Positions 3,408 through 61,539 of a DNA stretch of 64,000 bases are shown here, in pieces. The stretch is from Rhodocollybia butyracea (taxonomy: Eukaryota > Basidiomycota > Agaricomycetes > Agaricales > Omphalotaceae), in contig JADNRY010000035.1 of the NCBI GenBank assembly GCA_015501585.1, forward strand, positions 310,001-374,000, given 5' to 3'. Position 1 is the stretch's first letter; every line of letters begins with the position of its first letter. The translations under genes and the position numbers were made by a program. Under the pieces are notes generated by a model, which had not been told where the DNA came from, ran no database searches, and was given only the letters and a program-made list of their open reading frames with translations.

Positions 3408-5075
3408 TCATGAAACACCATACAGCTTATCGAGCTGTGCTTTGAACGCTTCTTCCACAGCTTTTCTTCGAATGTTACCCTTTGACGCTGTGCGTGGTAA
3501 CGAACCTTTGGGAATCACAATGATCATCTCGGCAGTAATCCTCTCGTGAACGTATCGCCTGGAATGGAAAAGTCGAATTTTCCTCCAGATTTCCTTCTTC
3601 AGTTTAGGCTCCGGGACCTCTCCATCGCTTTCCACGAACAGAACCGGGGACGGCCGTCCTGTCCCCGCCACGATACACTCCGATATGAGAGGCCCACACA
3701 TTGCGCGAGCGTTATCCTCAATCGATTTTGTATCACATCTCAGACTGTTCTCCGTTTTGATCCAATCATCATCCCTTCCAGCAAAGATGTATGTCCCAGG
3801 CCCCACCTCGATGAAAAGGTCACCAGTGTGGAACTTGTTGTCGTCTGGATTTCGTAGTGAGATATCAGGGCAATCGCCCGACTCTGGTAGGACAACGAAC
3901 TCGAGGAGGCGATTGGTAGACTGATGCACACCCGAGTCAACATCAGAGTGAGTTGGACGGAACTCGTATGAGAGACCAGTGAGGGGTCGAAGATGGTGTC
4001 GTGTGTTGGGATCTTTGCCTCCAATTGAAATGAGTGTGGATCCTCCGAGCTCAGTACTTCCGAAAATCTCCTTGAGATTGATTCCGCTGCTGTAAGCGTA
4101 ATCTTGGTCCTCCTGTGAGAGCGCCATACCGCAAGTCGTGACTTCATCGAGACTGGTTAGTATTGCCAGAAACTTTGGGTCTTGTCGAGCGGTTCGGAGA
4201 TGTGCTGAGAAGAAAGCGGCGAACTGCCAAATTCGGTTAACTTGACAATATCTAACCATGGCAGTCAGCTCTTCCGCAGGGAATGGGAACCGGCTCGGCT
4301 GCACGATACAAGTCCCGTATTGCATCAAGGAAAGAAGCAAGCATGTCTGACCAATATGTGCCATACTTCCCATCCAAGTACTAACATCCTGGCGGTCAGG
4401 ATTGATAGGCACACACAGCTGACTGGCCTTGCGAGCCGCTGCATCGAGCCAACGGTAGTTGCACGGAACAAGTTTTGGGCTGCCAGACGTAGACCCACTC
4501 GTGTGGAATATGAATGCGCATTCAGAAGGGTCAATGGACTCTTCGTTGGTGGTAATGTAGGAGTCCTGGACAACCATGCTTAGATTCACCGAAGACAATT
4601 CGATGTCGGAAAAGGCGGGTGCTGTAAATAAGTGTACAGGGACGTCATGTGTTCGGTTGGACATGGAAACTAATGTCCCCGAGTCGCATACTAGCGCCTT
4701 GGCACCTGCTTTCTGGAGGAGCTCGAAGATAACAGTGGGATTAGGGAGGCGAAGACTGAAAAGTTGAGGCACATAGCCCGCTTTCGAGACACCGTAGATA
4801 TGGAGAACATCGGAGTAGGTGTATCCTCCAATCCACAGCCCAACTACCGACTTGAGGGGAACATTAGCCTTGATATTGAGCTCATATGCCCAATACCTGG
4901 CACACAGTTCGACATCATCATAAAACTGTTTAAACGTGATCGTGTCCCATCGGGGGACTCCGAGCGAAGGACCTTGGGAGGAAGGGACCTTGAATGCCGC
5001 AGATTGGGCGAAACGCTCGCTGCTATCTTTGAGGATAGACAAGTGCGTCTTCAAGGGGTTGGTGGAGGGGGTCAT
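3408..5075 (-). CDS. Stand-alone AMP-binding (adenylate-forming) enzyme, NRPS-like/reductase type
   Basis: This is a single intron-less frame of 555 residues, starting at the ATG at 5075 (MTPSTNPLK). An upstream in-frame ATG at 5183 would add 36 mostly hydrophobic residues; I consider it less likely. Adenylation core motifs are in order: A3 FHTSGSTSGSPK (about residues 189-204), A5 FGSTELGG (about 338-345), A7 HTGDL (about 416), A8 FAGRDDDWIKTENS (about 431-444), and A10 PRTASKGNIRRK with the catalytic Lys near 532. These enzymes activate a carboxylic acid as an acyl-AMP. The pattern resembles the adenylation domain of fungal NRPS-like/aminoadipate-reductase-type enzymes. However, no carrier (T), thioesterase or reductase domain follows: translation stops 21 residues after A10. 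Substrate and acyl acceptor cannot be predicted. No biosynthetic partners are adjacent. Confidence 0.85.
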   Translation of the reverse strand: MTPSTNPLKTHLSILKDSSERFAQSAAFKVPSSQGPSLGVPRWDTITFKQFYDDVELCARYWAYELNIKANVPLKSVVGLWIGGYTYSDVLHIYGVSKAGYVPQLFSLRLPNPTVIFELLQKAGAKALVCDSGTLVSMSNRTHDVPVHLFTAPAFSDIELSSVNLSMVVQDSYITTNEESIDPSECAFIFHTSGSTSGSPKLVPCNYRWLDAAARKASQLCVPINPDRQDVSTWMGSMAHIGQTCLLLSLMQYGTCIVQPSRFPFPAEELTAMVRYCQVNRIWQFAAFFSAHLRTARQDPKFLAILTSLDEVTTCGMALSQEDQDYAYSSGINLKEIFGSTELGGSTLISIGGKDPNTRHHLRPLTGLSYEFRPTHSDVDSGVHQSTNRLLEFVVLPESGDCPDISLRNPDDNKFHTGDLFIEVGPGTYIFAGRDDDWIKTENSLRCDTKSIEDNARAMCGPLISECIVAGTGRPSPVLFVESDGEVPEPKLKKEIWRKIRLFHSRRYVHERITAEMIIVIPKGSLPRTASKGNIRRKAVEEAFKAQLDKLYGVS

Positions 5076-6579
5076 ACAAGTGGATAAACTGTTTAAGATA
5101 TGTGACCGAGTAAAGGGCTCCCTTATAAAGATAAAAACCCCGCAGAATAACAAACCTAGGAGCGAATCATCGCGACGAAGCAAGAGTCACAACAGCCAAA
5201 CTGAGCTGTCGGAAGCGGTACGTACGGCCAGACAGCGCTCACGTCTCTTGAACAGCATTGATATGTGGGTCTTGGTTTGTGATCTCTACATACTCGGGCT
5301 GTTAGCGAGTCTTGTCAACAATCTAAACCTGGTCTTGTCAGCATACTTCAGATATGCGTCTCATATAGCTGTGGCTAACCTTGGAGTAGCTGTGTAACTG
5401 TACAATATACAGCAGATCGTTCTGCAGCATTAGAACAATCCGTTAAAACGTCCCCTTATTGCTCCGAACCGCCAAGTTGTACAACTTGGTGTTAAAAGTT
5501 GAAACCATTTCGACTAGGGCAGAATCGTAAAGTGAGTTGAACGAACACAGTCTGAGTCAGACGTTGATAACTTGTATAGCTTTAGGCGGGAGCGCCGCAC
5601 CTAGACACCTGTCAGTAAATACACCTCATCATGATGAACGGTTAATAAATGCCATGTACTAGTACTGTTCTGCCAAATCCTTACCCTGGAGGCTATCCAC
5701 TGAGTTGAGAACAGTTGAGAACTCGGAGCGGACACAGTAACAGCACGATAATGATGTTACGCATTTTCACATGCACCACCTTCATCATGGGCGGCTCGGC
5801 GGGTTCGATTCCGAACGGTGAGTATACTAAATATGCCTCCCTGAACACTTGAGTTCTTAAAGCTTGAACAAGCTTGAACCATGTCATATCTGTATCAAAC
5901 TGAATATATAGTAGTCTAGGCTATGTAGTACGGGGATGCCTAATTAACCAAAATTCAAACTGAAAATTCAAATAATCCAAAGCGAAAATCGTATATATAT
6001 TTATGTGGTAAAAAGCTACAACTGGAAGCCCTCAAATTCTAACGTATTTGATTAGACTGTATGCTCTCGGGGCTTAGGGATTAATCGATTATGATCTGAG
6101 TCCATTATACTAGGGTCCCAGTAAATTTTACCTCAACGTTTTGACTTCACAAGACACTAAACATTATCCGGAGACATGAAAATCAATTACAATGCTATGC
6201 CAATTTTGGAAACCTTCGCTCGTATCGCCATAAGTAGTTTCGGTGAGTCCACCTGGCACCAGTACCAACTAAGTAGCTGTGCTTTTCGCGACGACTATAA
6301 ACGTTTAAACAGTGGATGAATGTATTAGTCCAACCGGAGAAATTGCCACATTGAAGAGACTTGAAACGCGGATTACGTCCATTGAGTGTTAGAATACGGA
6401 TATTATGAATATATAGGCCCACGTGTAGATGCATGGCACAAGCAAGGATAAGTTCCTTGTCATGACCACGGAACATTGGGGATCGTTTTCACAAATACAA
6501 TAGTGAAACAGCAGTCTACTAGGGATGGTGTATAACTTAAAGGGGTTGTACTTATAGCCCAGTACGTTCACTCCAAAGG

Positions 6580-7310
6580 TTTTTAAGCATCACGACTCTC
6601 TGAAGGTAAAGACTCAGTTCTCAGCTTTTGCGCTGTCCGAATACCTTCTCCTTGGAATTGAGAATCGAACTTATCGAGAAACTGTGCATGCCTCCAGTAG
6701 ACTACACAGGTATCGCGGACCGAGACCCCAGGACGGATGTGTATTCCCTGATGTTTAATAAAAGAAACTAAAGTCTATGCCAGCCTGGCATATCGGGACA
6801 CATTTACCTCTTGGTCAATGGTCCTCCATCTTTGGTGTACCAGCGGGTGTACCAGTGCACATTTCAAAAGGTGTATCAAAGAGAAGAAATGGCCGCAGAT
6901 AACAGCCAGATTATGACCCTAACAGCTCCAGCTTTTCACGGGCTAGTCGACCAGAATGAAGATCCTGGAGAGCCACCCATATCTTATGGCTAACGTACAG
7001 ACAAGCTCACGAGTAAGCTTAAAAGATTCAACAGGTTTCCAACGCCTTCCTTGAATATCTAGTTTGGACGATATCGGTTCTCTTTTTCCTTCATGTTTCG
7101 AACATTTTGTTCTAGGTAAACATGCTTCCAACGGATCCACAGAATACCACGTATCTGGAGTCCAGTTAATGTAAACTCTCCGATACAAAGCTTTCTGAGA
7201 GAGAACATCGAGTCCAGGAGAAATATGATCAGTACAACTATTCTGGATACTCAGACGATACGCAGATCGTGGGCAAGTGGTGAATTTTTCTTGGCAGTGG
7301 GCCCTTTCGA
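6580..7310 (-). pseudogene. Possible degraded coding sequence of unknown family
   Basis: Read on the minus strand, one frame is open from about 7310 to 6943 and contains peptide-like text (LYRRVYINWTPDTWYSVD, RRWKPVESFKLTREL). A second frame from about 6765 to 6595 ends with a plausible C-terminus (FLDKFDSQFQGEGIRTAQ). The two are separated by stops and no clean splice pair links them with confidence. I recognise no family. It could be a decayed gene, an intron-rich small gene I failed to splice, or chance. Confidence 0.2.
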
Positions 7311-8495
7311 ATCTCCTCTAGATGAACAACGGGTGGTGTGCACTGTGGGTGGCCTCGATGTTACAGTTCATCGTTTGGGCATCTGTTCGACAAGAATGGC
7401 TCTTCTGATGCTATTTTGGAGATGTCACGCGTACGGGAAGATGTAACACTCGATAACACATAGCTGGTGTGTCTTTCTAGGTGCTTTTTTTTGACAAGGC
7501 AAGCGGCGGGGACGGTACAGTCGACCTTCGGGAGTAAAGGGAACCACAACGACGTGGTACGAAAAAACCGATTGGACTACCTAATGTACGTACAGAGTAA
7601 GTATATAAGTAGCTACTGTGCGTAAGTGGCGGAACGACCGAGCACAAGAACATATGCTCTAAAACTTTTTTTTGTCAGTCTTATACTCAATCGAGGTCCC
7701 TACTGCGTCAGGATACCCGCTCTATACATAGGCTCGGAGTAATAGACAATACATTAGCGGAGAACAACAAGCTGGAGCCCTAATCGGGGCGGTAGTCAAT
7801 GGTATCATGTGCAAAGAAGTACCCCGTAGATATATCTAGGCTGACAGACAGTCCGATGGCCGGGCCCCTCTCAGTCCCCCTTAAATGTTGTGGGTGCAGG
7901 GATGGTGTAGCCTTTGAATTGCGAAAGTTTCCTAATTTGGTCGGCCAAAGCGTTGTATATCAGGGGTGTTTCACTTTGAAGCATGAGGAATTAGCCATGT
8001 CCAGCGCTTGGAGAGCTTGATTAGGCTCGTTAAAACTAAAATACTATAGTAGTAGTGAGATATATCTGAACTTATCACTGTAAGATGTCTGAAGAGTAAG
8101 TCGTCTCATGATGGAGCTTTTTCAGATACATTTATTTCCACTTGTTTACAGTGCTCCTAACCTGTGACAGTCAGGTAGTAGTTATTGTGCCTTGTTGAGT
8201 GAGACCCACCCCCACCGGCACAGGTGTTGACTACATATTCTAGACCCTGAATAATTGATTGAAGAAAGTAGACATACTTGTCTGTCTTGACCATGCCTTG
8301 CAAATGCTAACGGCTTGTCATGGGGGTGGGGGGGGGGTAGGACGACTTGGTTGTTTGCCCGAAGGTGGTCCGATGCTATAGCGACGCCGGGAGTCGCTAA
8401 CACGAGCAACGTTACAAAAAAAGAACAGTACATACTACTACCATATAATTTAATATCATAATATCTACAAGCAAAATCGACTCAAAACCGCATAT

Positions 8496-8584
8496 AGCCC
8501 ACCGCGAGGGTCGAACTCGCAGCCTTCAGATTTCAATGTTAACAGTTGATATAAAAGTCTGACGCTCTATTGAGCTAGGCGGGC
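8496..8584 (-). tRNA. tRNA-Lys(UUU)-like sequence with intron and truncated D arm, probably a pseudo-tRNA
   Basis: On the minus strand the acceptor arms GCCCGCC (8584-8578) and GGTGGGC (8503-8497) pair with one G-U. The T arm is GCGAG-TTCGACC-CTCGC. The anticodon stem TCAGA/TCTGA encloses CT-TTT-A, then about 20 nt of inserted sequence, then A. That matches a UUU anticodon loop interrupted by a canonical-position intron after base 37. The D arm is GCTC-AATA-GAGC, so the loop is only 4 nt and lacks the conserved GG; about 5 nt appear to be missing. The discriminator base would be U. Sequence and pairing are seen directly. The conclusion that it is non-functional is inferred from the missing D-loop GG. 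Confidence 0.6.
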
Positions 8585-9010
8585 AATAAATACATGAAAA
8601 ATGGGAACATGATCTTCGCAGATCCTTTGTCAGCTCATACATTTAAAAAAGGAACGACAGCATCGCCGAAGTTGGTTTGACTCAAAGTACATCCATATCC
8701 CCTGTTTGATTATTAATATAATCGAGCTAGCATGTATCCGACGAGTGACCCCTTCATGGGAAAATTATAAAAACGGTGTGAAGGGCCTCAATCATCCAAG
8801 CGGGGTAAAGACCCAAGGCATTAATATCGGAGGTTGAAATATCCCTTGATCAAGTACAAGATGAATTACAACTTTTACGATTGCAGGTACTTACAGTATG
8901 TCATCCAACAAAATATCATCTCTGAAGCTGCTCTTCCAGGAAAACCACAAATCTCTGACCTACACCTTCCTCACTCCAGTCCACGCTTCCGCGCTCGATA
9001 GTGCCCAACG

Positions 9011-51290: not shown

Positions 51291-52152
51291 TATGCCTGTC
51301 CCAATTGTTCATCACGGTGAGGTTGGTGGTGGGACGGTAGTGGTAATTCTGAGTCTGGCGACTATAACTAGAAGTAGCGAATGGACCAGGTTTCAGTGGG
51401 AGATATTGTGATGGCTATCCTGAAGCCTCAGACACCTTTTTTATTTATCTTAGTAACCAAGTAGTACTACCAGTGATAGTCCTCCACTCATCATATATAA
51501 GTAAAGTTTACAACACCATCAACGTTCTAACTCTAGTACACAATGACCTCCTTTCTGAGTTATGTCGCATTGACTATTATAAGCCAGACGGTTTTCACCC
51601 AATCATGTAAACATGCTTGTTTACGAGACTATGGCAGCCCCCGTAGATATCCTTATATACGATCCGGGTTAAGAATTGGTAACAATTCTTAAATCTACCT
51701 TTTCGCGTAGCAGATACACCGCCGGATCGTGCGTGTCTACAAATCATGATTGGCGATGAACTTTCAATTCTCTGAAGGACGCAGTATGGATATAATCTAG
51801 TACGGCGGCTTCTCTACTATCTGGCTGGCGCGCGAACAGCACGAGAATTGAAGGCCCTCCGTGTTAGCGCACAGAGACAGATACTACAAATTAGGCCATT
51901 CTCGAGGTGGTTGTCCCCCGAAACTTTCAATCACACTAAGAATATCATAGTGCAAGAGAGCGCAAGAGAGTGCAAGTCTAACAGTACCTCGACTCGTAGT
52001 GTCAAGAGGTTTAGAGTCTGCCTACGGGAGACAAGAGTGCAAGGCACTAGAATGGAAAATGAACTTATTAAGGAAGAAATTTATGCAAATACATCGGAGA
52101 ACAAATATTCAAAAGCACGTTGAAGGGCCAGTATGTTGTGCCCGATTAACTA
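51291..52152. other. Intergenic region with repeat copy B
   Basis: These 862 bp contain the second copy of the dispersed repeat (51629-51703) and no supported gene. Confidence 0.45.
51629..51703. repeat. Dispersed repeat, copy B
   Basis: Direct counterpart of copy A at 15548-15612. The shared core is ctatggca(a)gccccgtag, tccttatatacgatccgggt and aacaattcttaaatctac. This copy carries an insert that creates a small inverted pair, aagaatt/aattctt. Confidence 0.6.
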
Positions 52153-52516
52153 TCATACCTGTATCCCATTCATTCCAGCAACCACTATCCTCAATCCCTC
52201 TGCATCCAAAACCCGTAGTGGGTGGTAGATGTCTGCATCAACCTCTTTATGAGTAAGTTTGAGAACGACAGATCGAATAGAACTTCCCATCACTAACATC
52301 TCCGCAGATAAATTCGAACCAAGGCCCTTTAAACCAACGCAATTCCACCATAGAGTCGTCGAAGGCATCAACGGAGTCACATCTCAAATGAAGGCTGTGT
52401 AGTTTTGGAACTAAAGAGATAGTGGACTTGCGATGAGTTAAGCTTGAGATGAAATGTGAAGTGATACGTTTCTGGGGAGCTGATAATGGCGAATCATGTT
52501 TGAGGTAAGTCCCCAA
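52153..52516 (-). pseudogene. Truncated F-box-type pseudogene (C-terminal fragment)
   Basis: Two overlapping minus frames reproduce the last about 110 residues of the gene at 54887-56556. One gives RITSHFISSLTHRKSTISLV and LVPKLHSLHLRCDSVDAF. The other gives SIRSVVLKLTHKEVDADIYH, then LDAEGLRIVVAGMNGIQV to a matching stop. The parent has ITSHLISSLTLHQSG, LVPKLHSLHLRCDSINTF and MDAEGLRVVVAGTNGIQV. The switch of frame within the DDSMVELRWFKG region shows at least one indel. No upstream part of the parent is recognisable beyond about 52516. It is therefore a decayed partial duplicate lying about 2.4 kb from its parent, with a kinase gene between. Confidence 0.8.
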
Positions 52517-54582: not shown

Positions 54583-54886
54583 CGACTTTCGCGCATTTGC
54601 ACTTCTGCTATCTCCACTCAGCGCTCAGCGACGGCTCATTCTTGTCTACTATAGCCAGTGCCAAGTTCACGACACAATTCAGATTTGGTCTCAATTTCTA
54701 ACTGGTGACCAGGTTTCTTATGGCTCTGAGGGGGATACTTATTCTTGATTGCATATTGAGAACTTGAACTTCCCATTATTATGCATAACGCCCTCGGGTG
54801 TTGTTGCCACCGGTTGCGCAACTCTCGTAGGCGAGGGCTACGAGAGAAGCCGTCCATGATCCAGCGAGTGGACCTTACTCAAATTG

Positions 54887-56556
54887 TTATACCTGTATTC
54901 CATTCGTTCCAGCAACCACTACTCTCAATCCTTCTGCGTCCATATTCCGTAGTGGTTTATAGATATCGGCATCAACGTCTCGCTGAGTAAACTTGAGAAC
55001 GACAGATCGAATAGAACTTCTCCCCACTGCCAACATCCTCGCCGATAAGTCTGAACCGGGTTTGAACCAGCGTGAGTCGACCATGTTGACAAAAGCAGAG
55101 TGGTCGAATGTATTGATGGAATCGCATCTCAAATGAAGACTATGTAGTTTTGGAACTAAGGAGATGGAAGTGCCAGATTGGTGGAGAGTTAGGCTCGATA
55201 TGAGATGTGAAGTAATAGGATTTTGAAGAGCTAAATATCGTTCACTGACTTCAAGAAGATGTAGGGCCGGAATGACTCGAAGGGCCGCAATAAGATCCAA
55301 ATCAGACATACATATATCATGGAGCGTGAATGTGGTGATCATACACGACGATCTGGAGATGAACGAAGTGAAAGCTTTCGTTAACCAGACAGGATGGCCG
55401 CCATATACCGCAATCCTATTTAAAGAAGGGAAGTCGAAGGAGGAAAGCAATTCATCTGAGGATACATCGTTCGCACAAACCACAAAAGCGAATGATGTGA
55501 TGTTACACCATGTCTCCAATGCGCATTCGTCTGCATCGTCAAGGGTGGTATAGCGCAACCTGAGAGATTTCAGAGAGGAGCAGCTGCGAAGAGCTTCCAC
55601 CAAGTCTGTCAGTGATCGGCCAAGAAAAAGATGTTCTAGTTGATTGTAGAGAACCCTGGAAGTTGGTCCCGCGGGCTCGGCGGAAAGTGCACGGAGGCTC
55701 GAGCAATGTTCGAAAAGACTCAGGTCCGTTGGTTCAGTGATATCCAATTCTGCAAGTAAAGGAAAACGCAGGTGGGACGGTAAGCGGTACTCTGTTAATG
55801 GGTAATCCCCCCAATACTTGAACGTTTTCCAGCGCCAAGCATGTTGTGCAAGGTGGTTTAGGGAAGGAACCTCCTCAGCTGAATGTACTGAACCATGTAT
55901 AGTGAGTGCGAGCCTTAATGGCCAATTTCCCGATCTCTCCAAATATCGAGTAACTGTATCAATGAAACCAACCGGTGCTTTTACTTTGTTCAAATTTGTA
56001 GTATGGGTCTCCACTGCTAGGTTTGCCCACAAACCAGGTGTCGACAATGCGAGTGCGCGCTGACGGTAGCATACGGAGCTAATAGCCATCGAAGGAAGGG
56101 AAGTGATGATGCGAGAAGTGATGACGGTGTGAGGCAGCCAGCGGTACATCCACGGATAGCATTGGAGAAAATTCTCTTCACAAATGTACTGAAAGATTCG
56201 CAATAAAGTTTCGTTTAGCAGCTTCCTCATCGGGGAGAGTAGGGAGTGTAGCTTGTCTCTTTGAGTCTTCAACCGTTGTTTCGCAAATTGAACAATCGTG
56301 ATTTGCTCAGTCAGGCGGGCCACCTCCAAATCATGATCTTCAAGATCTTTATCGGCTAGAGCCAGCATCGTCCTGAGCTCCTTTGCTCTTTCAGGGCTAA
56401 CGACGGAAGGTCCAAATTCAGAACGAAGTCAGCAGAAAGTTCTTCAGAGCTGACACTTATACGTATCCGCAAAGGGTTTGCGCATTTTGCGCAAGGTGGT
56501 AGTGGTAGTTTAACCGACGTGGTCCCATTTCGGAACTGCCGGGGCCCCAGCCACAT
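54887..56556 (-). CDS. F-box/LRR-type protein of the Agaricomycete expansion (one indel)
   Basis: The large frame from 56368 to 54887 gives 493 residues, and an upstream frame to the ATG at 56556 gives the N-terminus (Cys-rich CAKCANPLRIRI). One base seems missing around 56400. Without it, the frame ending VLNLDLPS does not connect to ERAKELRTMLALADKDLEDH. Architecture: an N-terminal coiled coil (VARLTEQITIVQFAKQRL), an F-box-like segment (MRKLLNETLLRIFQYICEEN, then VCYRQRALALSTPGLWANL), and leucine-rich stretches (SLKSLRLRYTTLDDADE; LVPKLHSLHLRCDSI). Such proteins recruit substrates to SCF ubiquitin ligases when the F-box binds Skp1; that is inferred here. A truncated duplicate lies at 52153-52516. 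Confidence 0.82.
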
Positions 56557-56788
56557 GTATCACGCCAAATACATGCCTGGGATGCACAGTCTCCACGATG
56601 CTGTGATCAGCACTCGCCGTACCGTCGCACAACGTCGAGACTATGCACAACCTAAAAAAAAGGCGCTCCAACCTAAGAATTATTTGCATAGGTTACGAAA
56701 AGCCCAGAGCAATAATACTATTATGTGTTAACATATAAATGAATATACAGCTCTCGGAGTGCAAATACAGCAAAAACATCAAAGATAT
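56557..56788. other. Intergenic region between F-box gene and retroelement
   Basis: These 232 bp hold the 5' flank of the F-box gene and the sequence abutting the LTR at 56789. Nothing specific was seen. Confidence 0.4.
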
Positions 56789-57053
56789 TGTAACACCCCT
56801 AGGGTGGTCGTCCTTAATTCACACGAGAGAACACGACAAGGCTTTGCAATGTGTGTACCACAGGTGTAAAAGAACTACAGTACGTAAGCGCTAGACGTGA
56901 GTTTTATACTATGCATGACTTAATAGATAAGATTGACTATTAAATAGGCCGTTATCACTAGATAACGGCGATGTGTGATTAGATGGAGCGCTATCACTTA
57001 TTGATAGCGCCAGCAGGTCAGGACTAAGTCCATAAGACAGCGGGGGCGTTACA
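56789..57053 (-). repeat. 3' LTR of the gag/protease-only element
   Basis: It is bounded by TGTAAC (56789) and GTTACA (ending 57053). The longer ends tgtaacacccc and ggggcgttaca are inverted repeats with one mismatch in 11. It is 265 bp long and contains hairpins at 56949-56968 and 56988-57010. The matching 5' LTR is not in the window. Confidence 0.7.
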
Positions 57054-57064
57054 CCCTCCCCCAC
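57054..57064 (-). promoter_or_regulatory. Polypurine tract of the gag/protease-only element
   Basis: On the minus strand, gtgggggaggg directly abuts the LTR end TGTAAC. This is the expected position and composition of a plus-strand-synthesis primer and fixes the element's orientation. Confidence 0.7.
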
Positions 57065-57526
57065 TAGATTAACATCTCAGACGTTAATCGAATAACTGAA
57101 GCCGGAATATGGACTCCTAGTGATGGCATATCACTAGTGGGCGTTGAGTGTTGGCGTAACACTCGCAATCTAGCATTGATCCGGCAGTAAGCCTACTGTA
57201 AAACAGCGGCGTATAATAATTAATGTAGCGGGATTTTATCCCACTACTTGTGATACTACAAGTACTAAGTAGTACAGGTCAAGTAAGTCGACTGTAATGT
57301 GGGCCGACGGTCCAAGACACGTGACTGGCCTGGAATCGTGTCAAGATGACCAGTTTTCAGGCCACTGACTTGATACGGGTTTTGCGCCCATCCCGTTGCA
57401 CTTGCATCGGAAATTTCTGCTTCAACCACTAGTGGGACAATGTCCCATGGCAGGAAACTGCTCAGATACGTCCGAGAGTTGAATTTCGGTAGTATACTCA
57501 AGATTTTCGAGTACTGCAATCGACTA

Positions 57527-57886
57527 CTAAATTCTCGCTGAGAATTTATTATGCGGAACTTCCGCTTGGTTCTCCCCCACAGAAAGAGAAGGTATTACCT
57601 TCCTTCCAATGCAAATGGTATTGAGGATAGCATTGTATCTATTGACATTAATAATGTCGTAGTATACTTTATCGTCTATACCTCCATAGGAGGTATGTAC
57701 ATTCGCGCCAAAATTATATTTGGCTTTGCTTCCTACAGTTCCTAACTGTAGAGAATGTTGGTCTGCCAATTGGTGGACTTTGATGTTTGCTAATTGAATG
57801 AATGCGGGGCTTAAAGCCTCGATTGTGCAGCCAGAGTCGAATAGCGTGAATGCTTCGACTCCTGTGATTTCAATGATTGCCGTCAT
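57527..57886 (-). CDS. Retropepsin-like aspartic protease fragment
   Basis: This 119-residue frame contains FTLFDSGCTIEALSPAFIQ, an aspartic protease active-site motif (D-S-G), then strand-like segments (YYDIINVNRYNAILN, and DII-like text typical of gag-polyprotein proteases). It is in a different frame from gag and separated from it by about 840 bp without a clear long ORF, so it is probably a decayed or frameshift-linked pol remnant. A full retropepsin also needs a flap and the ILG near the C-terminus; NAILN may correspond to this. It ends about 470 bp before the 3' LTR. Confidence 0.6.
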   Translation of the reverse strand: MTAIIEITGVEAFTLFDSGCTIEALSPAFIQLANIKVHQLADQHSLQLGTVGSKAKYNFGANVHTSYGGIDDKVYYDIINVNRYNAILNTICIGRKVIPSLSVGENQAEVPHNKFSARI

Positions 57887-58730
57887 AAGACGGCGATTTT
57901 GGACTGGACCTTGGTTGAGGTCTGGTCATAAGTCACTAGACTTATGAATACCTTCACCCGTATTGGGTTTAGGCTCTTTGTTAGGTGTGTTAATAACCGC
58001 CATACGATCAGTGCCTTCCAGTTGTATCTGGTGGCTTTGAGGATTGAGCAACAAGAATGAGTCATCATTCCAGTTATTCTCTAGGCATGTGATCAATCAT
58101 GTAGTAGGATATTTATCCCGCCACTTGTAATACTACCAGTCGACAAAGTCGAACGAGGCATGCAATATGATAAGATTATCCGAACTGATAATCTACTTAG
58201 TCCAAACTAATACTAGTTTGGACTGAGATGACATCATATGTCAAAGCTGCAGTGCAGGCGCAGTGGGGTATCAGTCTCAATCTTAAAGATTTAGTCTGAT
58301 ATGCCATTATCAGGCGCCTTAATGATGTCATTAATATCGGAACTGATAATCAGTTCCGATAGTAACTTATGACACATTGGTTACTGGTCAGATGATAAGT
58401 ATAGAATTTTGGCGAAAGTCGCCACATTTTTCTACCAGTCACCTGACTTAATTTTCATCGGTACTATCCGATTCAAATGCTAGTGGGGCATAGCCACCAC
58501 AATGGTTTAACTTGGAAACTTCCGAGAGTAGATGTTGCAGACTCGGAACTTCCCAGTACTGCGTTAAAATAAAATTCTAAGTAAGAATTACATGTGCGGA
58601 AATTCCGCTAGACCCTCCCCCTCTTTAAGAGAAGGATTATTGATGTACTTGTCCACTGGATGAGTCTTAATGCAAGAGACATGCAATATAGATGCAGTCT
58701 TTGAATACTATAGTACAGACCGTTGGTCTG

Positions 58731-59630
58731 TTACGCTTCTGAAGATTCCTCCTCGACAGGTTCAAGAGTGTATTCACTCTCAGAATTTATTTCTTCATCA
58801 TCGACGATGTCAATGACTAGAGTTTCATGAGAATCCATATCCGGACTCTCTATATCTGAGTTGGTATCTTCCATCTCGTCCGCATCTTCTCTCCTCGACG
58901 AGAGATAGTATTCATAGAGGGCAATATTGTCCTCAATGCGTGTGACGGCCTTGACCATCGTTTTGAGATTGGCGTGTTCAGGGACAATACCCTGGTCCGT
59001 CAGTCGATCGAGAATATCAATGGGTAATCCACTGATAAATTGTTTGCGCATCAGATACGCATTTGGTTGCTGCTGCATCCTAGATGCCCAGCGTACCAGC
59101 TTTGAGTAATAATCTCGTACTCCACTAGTAGGGGAGTACACAACGTCCTCAAACTGCTGTGCAGCTTGATGGATGGTAGATGCTTGAACGCACCTATCAA
59201 AGACTCCGATTACGGCGTCTTCAAAATTCCAGACCAGTTTGGTCCGGTGAGCACCAACGACTTCATCGTTGTACCAATCAAGGGCTTTGTCCTTTAAAAA
59301 CATGCCCAAAAGCTGAAGGCGGGCAGCATCATAACCCGGCCCGCAATAACGGTTGGCTTTAAACCACCAAAGCAGTGACAGTAGCCACCGCTCAAAGACT
59401 TCCACATCCGGCATACCAAAGTATGCCTCTGGATTAGGAATCTTGATTGATTTCACTCCTTCCAACGGAGGGAGTGGAGTATTCACATACTTGTGTATTT
59501 GTTTTCGGTACACTTTGTGTACCGAGTGCTGCCAGCTTTTACGACGGTCATCATCGTCTGTTTTGGCGCGGAGTTTAGCTACAGCGTGTCGCTGTTGCTT
59601 TTTGCTGAGTTTCTCAGCAGACTTGAACAA
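58731..59630 (-). CDS. Retrotransposon Gag, third segment (capsid-like domain)
   Basis: This frame from about 59630 to 58731 carries the Retrotrans_gag core: FERWLLSLLWWFKANRY, LLGMFLKDKALDWYNDEV, and GVRDYYSKLVRWASRMQQ. An acidic tail (EDADEMEDTNSDIESPD; TLEPVEEESSEA) follows. Reading upstream in the same frame, it is continuous to a TGA at 59727-59729 (KSAEKLSK preceded by DDSCIEQLF). No ATG is required at 59630. No CCHC zinc knuckle is seen. The same frame holds the two upstream segments, so this is one gag ORF cut by stops (see findings). Confidence 0.8.
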   Translation of the reverse strand: MFKSAEKLSKKQQRHAVAKLRAKTDDDDRRKSWQHSVHKVYRKQIHKYVNTPLPPLEGVKSIKIPNPEAYFGMPDVEVFERWLLSLLWWFKANRYCGPGYDAARLQLLGMFLKDKALDWYNDEVVGAHRTKLVWNFEDAVIGVFDRCVQASTIHQAAQQFEDVVYSPTSGVRDYYSKLVRWASRMQQQPNAYLMRKQFISGLPIDILDRLTDQGIVPEHANLKTMVKAVTRIEDNIALYEYYLSSRREDADEMEDTNSDIESPDMDSHETLVIDIVDDEEINSESEYTLEPVEEESSEA

Positions 59631-59726
59631 TTGTTCAATGCATGAATCGTCAGATGACGATGTGGATTCTGGATCAGAGTGATCCGAGTTAGATGGTTCA
59701 TCATCCCAGGGAGTGCGTGCGCGGTG

Positions 59727-60857
59727 TCATTTGTCGCCATTTCTCCCCCTTCCTATTCCGTTACTGGAATTGGAACTGCGATTTTTGTCTGGTGCTCTTT
59801 GAGCACTGGACAGTCCAGCATTATGCTTTGTTACCGGAGTCGCTGACTCCTGGTATCGTACCTCATTTAGTACAAGAAGGTCGATGGGTAATCCATCTTC
59901 ATTGAATCCCACCCACTGGTTGGGAAGTTTCGGATGAGCGCTTCCATATTTATGGATGCTCAAATTCCTTTTTTGCTGAGTCGCAACACGACTCGGCCAG
60001 TCTGACAGTACACCTGTTGGACACTTTGGAGGTGGGACCTTCCGTGCAGACTCAGCGACTATGCATGAGCCTTGGTTCAGAAAATTCTTATGATGCGTTG
60101 CATCATTTGACTTGATCTTTATCTCCGGCGGAGGTTTAGGTAGCTTCGTTGGATCACTAATATGTGATCTTCGAGGAGATTGTACTTTCTTGAGTTTGTA
60201 TTGATTGAAGGCATTCATACGCCTCCGATTCATGGACATAATAGTCAGTTCAGTATTACTGTCCGACATTTTTAGCAACTTAGTTGCTGCATTTGCTGCT
60301 TGTACAGCGGTAGTGTGAGATGCACTCCGTACAGACGGTAGTGCCAGTTGTGGTGCCGATGATATCACCGGCGGTACTGTGTGTTGTACAGTACCTATGT
60401 ATATGGCTTGCGCCATAGGTATTGGATGACTGTTACAGTCATCGGGTGCAGACGCCATAGATCTGACCCATTGTGTCAGTTCCTCCCGTTGTGCTGGCGT
60501 TGATGGAAGTGCTCGCGGTCCTCTTGGAGCCGGCGATGCTCTTCCGGTGGTGGGACTAAGTCTCACCCGAGGCATATAGCCAATAGGACTCGATGAGTCC
60601 ATCGGCACTGTACTAGTAGTATGTCCCCTAGGAACATACGGTGTCTCTACCGGATCCATAGGATCGCGGTGCCCATAGTTAGCACTAGGAATATATCCTT
60701 GTGCACTCGTATGATCAGCTTGGACATGTTGTCCAATCTTAGCCTGTACGCGATGTGATCGCCAAGGCTCAATTGCATGATGTTCAGCCTGAACGTCATC
60801 ATTTGATGTGGACCATTTCATAGTCCGCAATAACTCAGGTGTGGCCGACACATGTCA
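59727..60857 (-). CDS. Gag second segment between two in-frame TGA stops
   Basis: This frame runs between the TGA at 60855-60857 and the TGA at 59727-59729. It starts HVSATPELLRTMKWS and ends GRGRNGDK. It is basic, Pro/Ser-rich, with few predicted ordered elements (TAVQAANAATKLLKMSDSN; RRRMNAFNQYKLKKV). No catalytic motif is seen. It lies in the same frame as the segments before and after it. Confidence 0.65.
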
Positions 60858-61191
60858 GGCCACAGTCATAGCAACACGCATATCACTATCAACAGGTTTT
60901 GAAGAAGATACTTCTTCATCCTTATTGAAGTGTTTTTGGACTATTTGGTCCAACTCACTTACAATCACATCAAAGGTTCGCTTATGATCCTTTTGGGTTG
61001 CTTGAACTGTCTCATTCAGTTCTTTCATTCTAGAAATAATGTCAGCTATGCTGACTATCTCATCGTTCTTTTGAACACTTGAAGCGTTCAAGCTTTCATG
61101 CAATGCCTGTGCCTTTACGGACCTGGCAACAGGCAGTATGGTTGGTGACGTGGCACCAGTAATGGCAGCGCGATTGCTTGCACTTGCTTGC
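60858..61191 (-). CDS. Gag first segment, 5'-truncated by the copia insertion
   Basis: Reading starts inside the copia LTR (up to 61241) only by chance; the element's own sequence begins at 61191 (about QASASNRAAITGATSP). It contains a helical stretch SRMKELNETVQATQKDHKR and IVSELDQIVQKHF and ends MRVAMTVA before the TGA. No start codon of its own survives. Confidence 0.6.
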
Positions 61192-61539
61192 TGTTGGATA
61201 TTCGGTCCGCGGTATATGGCCGCCGGTATGTACAGCTCCAATACCGAGTAGATATCAGACCCGAGTTCTTATCATTTGTTTTAACTTTTATTTCACTGAT
61301 ACGGATTTCTACTTATACTGTACGTATCGACGTTCCCTTCTTTTCCTCAGCCTTCATCACTTCTGGCTGAGGTATGTCTATTATACTTATGCTCTATGTC
61401 CATTATGCTCATACTGTACCTATAGCTTAGTTGTACATCGTACTAACGTGTCTCTTAGGTATGGTAATATGATTTAGCCTTCATCACTTCTGGCTGAGCT
61501 TAGTTGTACATCGTACTAACGTGTCTCTTAGTTCCAACA
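61192..61539 (+). repeat. 5' LTR of the copia element
   Basis: It is bounded by TGTTGGA (61192) and TCCAACA (ending 61539), perfect 7-bp inverted ends. It is 348 bp long. Immediately after it, at 61540, comes the primer-binding site. Within it the pieces agccttcatcacttctggct and gttgtacatcgtactaacgtg are each present twice. Confidence 0.8.

Follow-up and report, generated by a model that had tools for sequence, protein, structure and literature searches.

Why should a retroelement carry a short perfect hairpin every few tens of bases along its whole length, in its coding and non-coding DNA alike? This question is raised by positions 56789-61191 of a 64,000-nt stretch of the basidiomycete Rhodocollybia butyracea (contig JADNRY010000035.1, positions 310,001 to 374,000 of the forward strand; hereafter the window), where an initial annotation made from the letters alone had noticed these inverted repeats in a long terminal repeat (LTR) element. 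Using a combination of methods (stem counts in real and shuffled DNA, comparison of copies within the 95.6-Mb assembly, which is the one genome from which element DNA was examined, and folding calculations), we propose that this carpet of hairpins is probably kept by selection for genome-scale folding on both strands.

To measure the density of the hairpins, we counted perfectly matching inverted repeats separated by 0-6 nt in 56789-61191 and in 50 dinucleotide shuffles of the same DNA. The element holds 55, 27 and 14 stems of at least 6, 7 and 8 bp, versus 6.5, 1.7 and 0.5 in the shuffles, a chance expectation of about 0.5 having been calculated beforehand for 8 bp. All of the 12 stems of at least 8 bp listed initially were recovered, together with two further ones of 8 bp (57117-57137 and 60900-60918); the listed stems are real, but several proved longer than stated, such as those at 58199-58224 (11 bp) and 58335-58361 (13 bp, with a 1-nt centre). 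Describing the element as built almost entirely of hairpins was too strong, since perfect stems (at least 6 bp, loops to 8 nt) cover 753 of the 3801 alignment columns of the close-copy group, i.e. about one fifth. The excess occurs only at short loops, most strongly at 1-6 nt (at separations of 25-300 nt we counted 262 stems versus 229 by chance).

Three comparisons bear on this excess. First, its open reading frames (ORFs) in the window contain 7, 13 and 7 stems of at least 6 bp, versus 1.4, 2.8 and 0.9 in 100 codon shuffles that preserve the protein. Second, the adjacent copia ORF (2 stems versus 2.7) and an F-box-like host gene (2 versus 2.3) are at chance in codon shuffles, and over the rest of the window (1-56788) we counted 88 stems of at least 6 bp where 10 shuffles predict 86.9, so that the reported absence of the excess from the neighbouring copia element and host genes holds; neither a density within the shuffle range nor an equal density in these neighbours, the two outcomes named in advance as refuting, was found. 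Third, the copy in the window has four stems of at least 8 bp, of up to 13 bp, in an 844-base stretch devoid of ORFs, versus four in the 2461-base gag region. As the longest stems sit where there is no ORF, the protein is not what makes them, in line with the earlier remark that LTR, spacer and ORF alike carry hairpins: stems occur in every part, and codon shuffles are exceeded.

To which elements does this property extend? With 801 bases of gag as the query, 40 of the 260 candidates gave scored matches; 16 of these (window included) are 93-100% identical and 24 are 69-74% identical. At the protein level, three gag relatives were found, and the nearest named one is from Rhodocollybia butyracea, which points to a fungus of the mushroom group. 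Three of the related copies are complete (L031-L033): their LTRs measure about 266 bp and have TG...CA ends, and they show 5-bp target-site duplications and, as a purine tract before the 3' LTR, the sequence GTGGGGGAGGG; between the LTRs of these three copies, frames of at least 120 aa comprise only gag and protease-like ones, with neither reverse transcriptase (RT) nor integrase, and the non-autonomous L031 measures 4885 bp. An autonomous relative, L035, has a protease-like frame (4423-4899), followed by RT and RNase H (in 6014-7114), integrase (in 7118-8812; Pfam) and a Tf2-type SH3 domain, while its gag has a zinc-knuckle-like motif that stays under the Pfam cut-off. The hallmarks of Ty3/gypsy elements are the order protease-RT-RNase H-integrase, TG...CA LTRs, a short target-site duplication, a purine tract and a tRNA primer-binding site. 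Judged by the domain order of L035 and the LTR features of L031-L033, the clade is one of Ty3/gypsy LTR retrotransposons and, by its gene content, the window-type element is a non-autonomous gag-only LTR element. Such elements, with an LTR pair and gag but no RT or integrase, are presumably those called the TR-GAG type, to which the window-type element adds a protease-like piece and the hairpin carpet.

The RT of L035 gave 117 matches, and the 30 loci retrieved belong mainly to two pol subfamilies, A and B, which are about 79% identical over the RT part and 75.5% identical over 3444 aligned coding bases (about 25% of the sites differ). All 66 loci tested exceeded their own dinucleotide shuffles in stems, by 2.8- to 19-fold (four shuffles each; some loci overlap, and flanks are included). 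In 100 codon shuffles each, stems of at least 6 bp numbered 50 versus 7.2 in an A pol (L038), 45 versus 5.5 in a B pol (L040) and 26 versus 4.2 in the gag of L031, which places gag and pol of the clade at 6-8 times the shuffled level. An extra ORF, lying 3' of the integrase at the same place in A and B elements (L035, 9001-9900; L073, 611-2698 on the minus strand), is likewise rich in hairpins in B (34 stems versus 3.3 in dinucleotide shuffles). In L073 this third ORF encodes at least 696 aa and is partly coiled-coil-like; it had no relative among 7990 scored candidates and no Pfam family over the cut-off, with one match below it. Across gag, pol, the third ORF and the non-coding parts, hairpins are spaced at about one per 75-80 bases, with stems of 6-13 bp and loops mostly of 3-4 nt. 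A presumed distant subfamily (L068, 58% protein identity) turned out to be a frameshifted A-type copy. At the protein level the RT has 792 relatives, those of Pleurotus, Hypsizygus, Trametes, Pisolithus and Ceratobasidium being among the 120 listed, and no related DNA outside this genome was found in scans of viral contigs and genome contigs.

The divergence between A and B was used to ask how the hairpins evolve. The real A-to-B codon changes were dealt 300 times to random sites with the same codon. The real B sequence has 48 stems, versus a mean of 9.7 (largest 19) under random placement, and shares 21 exact stem centres with A, versus 3.6 expected (largest 8). Similar values were obtained in the reverse, B-to-A, direction (57 stems versus 10.3; 21 shared centres versus 3.5), and the larger share of the A and B stems is lineage-specific. 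Because these counts far exceed those from random placement of the same changes, stems have been both conserved and newly made between the subfamilies, with a fast turnover. The compensatory change that the initial annotation had suggested looking for in other copies is present, with 18 of 27 and 16 of 27 double changes between A and B restoring the base pair.

These data bear on the possibility that the stems are a relic, i.e. the decaying remains of a hairpin-rich ancestor or of inserted hairpin elements. The copies do decay, chiefly at CpG, but if the A-B changes had been placed neutrally, about 10 stems would remain instead of 48; moreover, the stems are traversed by coding frames, and no repeated-insert family appears, as only one direct repeat of at least 20 nt was listed in the element (21 nt, 86% identity). 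We regard a relic as extremely improbable. Private single-copy mutations outside CpG fall on stems (49 of 2354 sites) at the same rate as elsewhere (237 of 9603), which indicates that stems in resident DNA are neither spared nor repaired. Under the preferred explanation, selection for folding would act on the nucleic acid while the element goes through its own cycle, and would be loosely tied to particular positions, as in RNA viruses with genome-scale folding and in phages with single-stranded RNA. Compensated double changes in single copies were set aside, being accounted for by CpG decay. In the close copies (L001-L053), most variants are C-to-T or G-to-A changes within CpG, the pattern to be expected when retroelements are methylated and decay.

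Could the stems be produced without any benefit, by a polymerase that uses one arm of a near-palindrome as the template for the other? Such template switching does occur here, as judged from the aligned copies: the hairpin at 59505-59525, whose loop reads AAA on the sense strand, has TTT, the exact inversion, in L010, L012 and L013, turning a Lys of gag into Phe. AAA is likely the older state (subfamily A has AAA and B has AGA), and this loop is, on that comparison, a clean natural case of hairpin-mediated inversion. It is of the same kind as the spacer inversion reported in yeast genes (PMC8604942), and hairpins are reported to be both created and repaired by template switching (PMC8794818); that the stems are perfect and restricted to short loops also fits. 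The yeast inverted repeats are, however, described as isolated single-gene events (PMC8604942), whereas the present hairpins run over the whole length of the element and have changes in both arms. In 88 cases, a stem of one lineage is broken at two or more pairs in the other; there, both arms share the changes more equally than in control segments (0.52 versus 0.74), and one arm is unchanged in 2.8% of 71 broken stems versus 7.6% in controls; this even spread is the opposite of arm copying. No inverted loop was seen in 107 comparisons of conserved hairpins between subfamilies (both directions are counted in the 107 comparisons and in the 88 broken stems), and double CpG changes in the copies were compensated in 13 cases and uncompensated in 17, i.e. 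without excess. Most stem gains between L038 and L057 came about by one point change, an outcome that templated repair of a single base could yield too. Together, these data make template switching an unlikely main source of the hairpins. The CA/TG loop 'inversions' proved to be alternative products of CpG decay.

If folding itself is selected, it should be visible in folding energy, which we expressed as the mean folding z over 120-nt windows and as the minimum folding energy difference (MFED) from 350-nt fragments, with one script for the element, the phages and the controls. On the sense and antisense strands, respectively, z is −2.9 and −2.7 for the window element, −3.5 and −3.2 for A pol, and −3.4 and −3.4 for B pol, versus about −0.3 to 0.1 for copia and host DNA; the minus-strand RNA of the window element, whose folding had been singled out for a check, thus stands at −2.9. 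The sense-strand MFED is 27.9% for gag B, 30.8% for gag A, 35.0% for both the window element and the third ORF, 41.1% for A pol and 46.1% for B pol. It is larger on the sense than on the antisense strand (35 versus 30% for the window element, 41 versus 33% for A and 46 versus 38% for B), a surplus that may be an effect of composition. The same script gave 1.9% for copia, 3.7% for host DNA, and 6.0% and 4.6% for the 16S and 23S rRNA of E. coli (−1.0% for the other strand of 23S). In six single-stranded RNA (ssRNA) phages (MS2, Qbeta and four environmental relatives), the plus-strand MFED is 22.6-32.0%, a range that includes both gag values, the minus strand is similar in the four tested, and perfect stems reach 2.3-4.7 times the shuffles.

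Similarly to these phages (Leviviricetes), the element folds on both strands, has short perfect stems in excess and shows no preference for G-U: mismatches within stems are G-U in 26 and A-C in 42 cases in the element, and 32 and 24, equally enriched, in the six phages. Unpaired G and C are also fewer, at 28-30% versus 35-38% in shuffles for the sense strand of the element and 24% versus 32% for MS2, Qbeta and L080; no such reduction occurs in copia (35 versus 33%) or host DNA (36 versus 32%). Unlike the phages, the element replicates through DNA, and its stem excess and pol MFED are higher. Another reading places the selection on DNA, with hairpins that matter in the single-stranded minus-strand cDNA or as cruciforms rather than in RNA; it is favoured by the similar folding of both strands and by A-C mismatches being as frequent as G-U or more so. 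Yet the ssRNA phages, whose cycle has no DNA, have the same strand equality and G-U/A-C equality, so that neither needs a DNA stage. We consider the DNA-level alternative improbable, and the missing G-U preference, at one time an argument against selection on RNA, was dropped for the same reason. With respect to the two causes offered by the initial annotation, selected folding is the better fit, given the conservation and regain of stems between A and B and the phage-like folding profile, while template-switch repair is not retained as the main cause.

Several observations weigh against selected folding as a property of this clade alone, or against parts of its evidence. First, the loop inversion described above, seen in three relatives, shows that templated events do happen. 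Second, the divergence of A and B at third codon positions is 0.36-0.37 for stems, 0.57-0.65 for loops and 0.48-0.50 for the remaining sites, a contrast that is partly inflated because the stems were picked as perfect in one lineage; when they were picked in a third gag lineage, the stem values were mixed with respect to the others (0.52 versus 0.57, 0.32 versus 0.56 and 0.63 versus 0.49). Third, shared variants seemed to be rarer in stems (5 of 2354 versus 77 of 9603 sites), but this difference was gone when stems were taken from any copy (14 of 3236 versus 70 of 12586). Fourth, polarised shared variants of A and B are few (n = 25), with 3 stem gains, 1 loss and 21 neutral; an excess of stem-gaining shared variants (7 versus 1.9) was dropped, because polarity matters and only these 25 A/B variants can be polarised. 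Fifth, among five control stretches taken for other gypsy families, two have an MFED near zero (1.3 and 2.6%, 1 kb each) and one turned out to belong to subfamily A, but the families C412 (L067; 13.7% in 1 kb) and C937 (L069 and L072; 11.2% in 3 kb) are intermediate, so that the boundary of the trait is not sharp; folding may grade across the gypsy families of this genome. C937 had seemed enriched in stems in 1 kb (6 versus 1.65) and was weakly so in 3 kb (11 versus 5.0). For control stretch L071, the strand folded was not that of its RT frame but the other one.

Folding on the scale of a whole genome is, as such, well described in RNA viruses, where it is termed genome-scale ordered RNA structure (GORS; PMC7642675). 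That coronavirus study gives an MFED of 15% for SARS-CoV-2 and of 7-9% for hepatitis C virus, its record being 23.4%, and describes stem-loop pairings that are seldom homologous from one relative to another (PMC7642675). The element resembles GORS in its genome-long excess of folding energy, its many local stem-loops and their quick turnover (PMC7642675), and differs in being an LTR retrotransposon, not an RNA virus, with counted stems that are perfect and short. Its folding energy being far below that of shuffles, the clade works like GORS, yet as an LTR retrotransposon it is not a member. The 28-46% of the element exceed the published 23.4%, both being obtained from 350-base fragments with dinucleotide-keeping controls, but program and sampling differ (PMC7642675), which leaves the phages as the only like-for-like comparison. 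The RNAs of Ty3, a Ty3/gypsy relative with a probed structure, and of Ty1 in yeast have dispersed structured regions like the element; the accessible part of that work depicts a mosaic, up to 30% stable and highly structured with dynamic parts between, and describes no carpet of perfect hairpins (PMC11381356). In agreement with the initial statement that no described family has this property, searches limited to open-licence papers brought up no LTR retrotransposon for which it is reported.

What benefit could such folding bring? In Qbeta replication, local folding that leaves few G and C unpaired prevents template and product from annealing into dead-end double strands (PMC6913131). Because the element obeys this unpaired-GC rule and its host genome has RNA interference (RNAi) genes (22 Piwi, 3 Dicer-dimerisation and 26 RNA-dependent RNA polymerase matches), we favour limited annealing and reduced exposure to RNAi. 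Hairpins on both strands would slow sense-antisense annealing and conceal the RNA, leaving less double-stranded RNA for Dicer to act on; stems of this length by themselves fall short of what Dicer needs. This specific benefit against double-stranded RNA is put forward tentatively; compaction or nuclease protection of the packaged RNA is our next choice, and a role at the level of the cDNA is another candidate. The complete scenario, in which a Ty3/gypsy clade independently evolved an RNA-phage-like folding of both strands that blocks sense-antisense annealing and evades fungal RNAi, as an anti-silencing shield, is more speculative still.

The features of the copy in the window are collected in Table 1. 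It lacks the 5' LTR and the leader, and has a copia-type element next to it (ORF from 61636). Its gag is broken by in-frame stops, other copies having longer open gag frames, and its protease-like ORF has Pfam aspartyl-protease matches only at E 0.2, under the cut-off. In 56500-61500, no Rfam model matched at E up to 1. The non-autonomous element has a mosaic make-up: the protease-like piece (57527-57886) is about 90% identical in DNA to subfamily A (L035), the gag about 71%. Directly after the 5' LTR, L031 reads CTTTTTTGAACATCAAG... (1195-1224), identically in L032 and L033. Elsewhere in the window, 52148-52294 and 54882-55028 are 82% identical over 147 nt, with a second such pair nearby, a repeat pointing to a putative tandem duplication of the F-box/LRR-like host gene, and in a tile near 20-21 kb with 9 stems, four are overlapping poly-T matches.

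Table 1. Features of the hairpin-rich element in the window (positions are those of the 64,000-nt stretch; a dot marks features given without strand).
Feature	Positions	Strand	Basis and remarks
LTR element, 5'-truncated, non-autonomous (gag and protease-like piece, no RT/integrase)	56789..61191	-	Hairpin-rich throughout; match to L031-L033 stops at 61191
3' LTR, 266 bp; 9-bp hairpins at 56948-56969 and 56988-57010	56789..57054	-	LTR pair of L031-L033 matched here
Stretch between protease-like ORF and 3' LTR; 5 stems of at least 6 bp	57055..57526	-	Stem count
Protease-like ORF, 119 aa; 7 stems of at least 6 bp, 3 of at least 8 bp	57527..57886	-	ORF list; stem count
Stretch without listed ORF; longest hairpins (9, 8, 11, 13 bp); 13 stems of at least 6 bp	57887..58730	-	ORF list; stem count
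Gag region with in-frame stops; 27 stems of at least 6 bp, 4 of at least 8 bp	58731..61191	-	ORFs 58731-59630, 59727-60851, 60855-61241
Hairpin, 11 bp, loop of 4 nt	58199..58224	.	Stem search
Hairpin, 13 bp, 1-nt centre; longest of the element	58335..58361	.	Stem search
Gag hairpin, 9 bp, 3-nt loop, inverted in L010, L012 and L013	59505..59525	-	Copy comparison

Genome-scale folding is known from RNA viruses and is found here at or above the level that the same script gives for phages. The clade shows how much structural message a protein-coding DNA can hold beside its protein. Because many copies of different age coexist in one genome endowed with RNAi genes, one can count directly how hairpins are conserved, replaced and lost, and the clade is thus a promising one in which to ask why certain genomes fold up.

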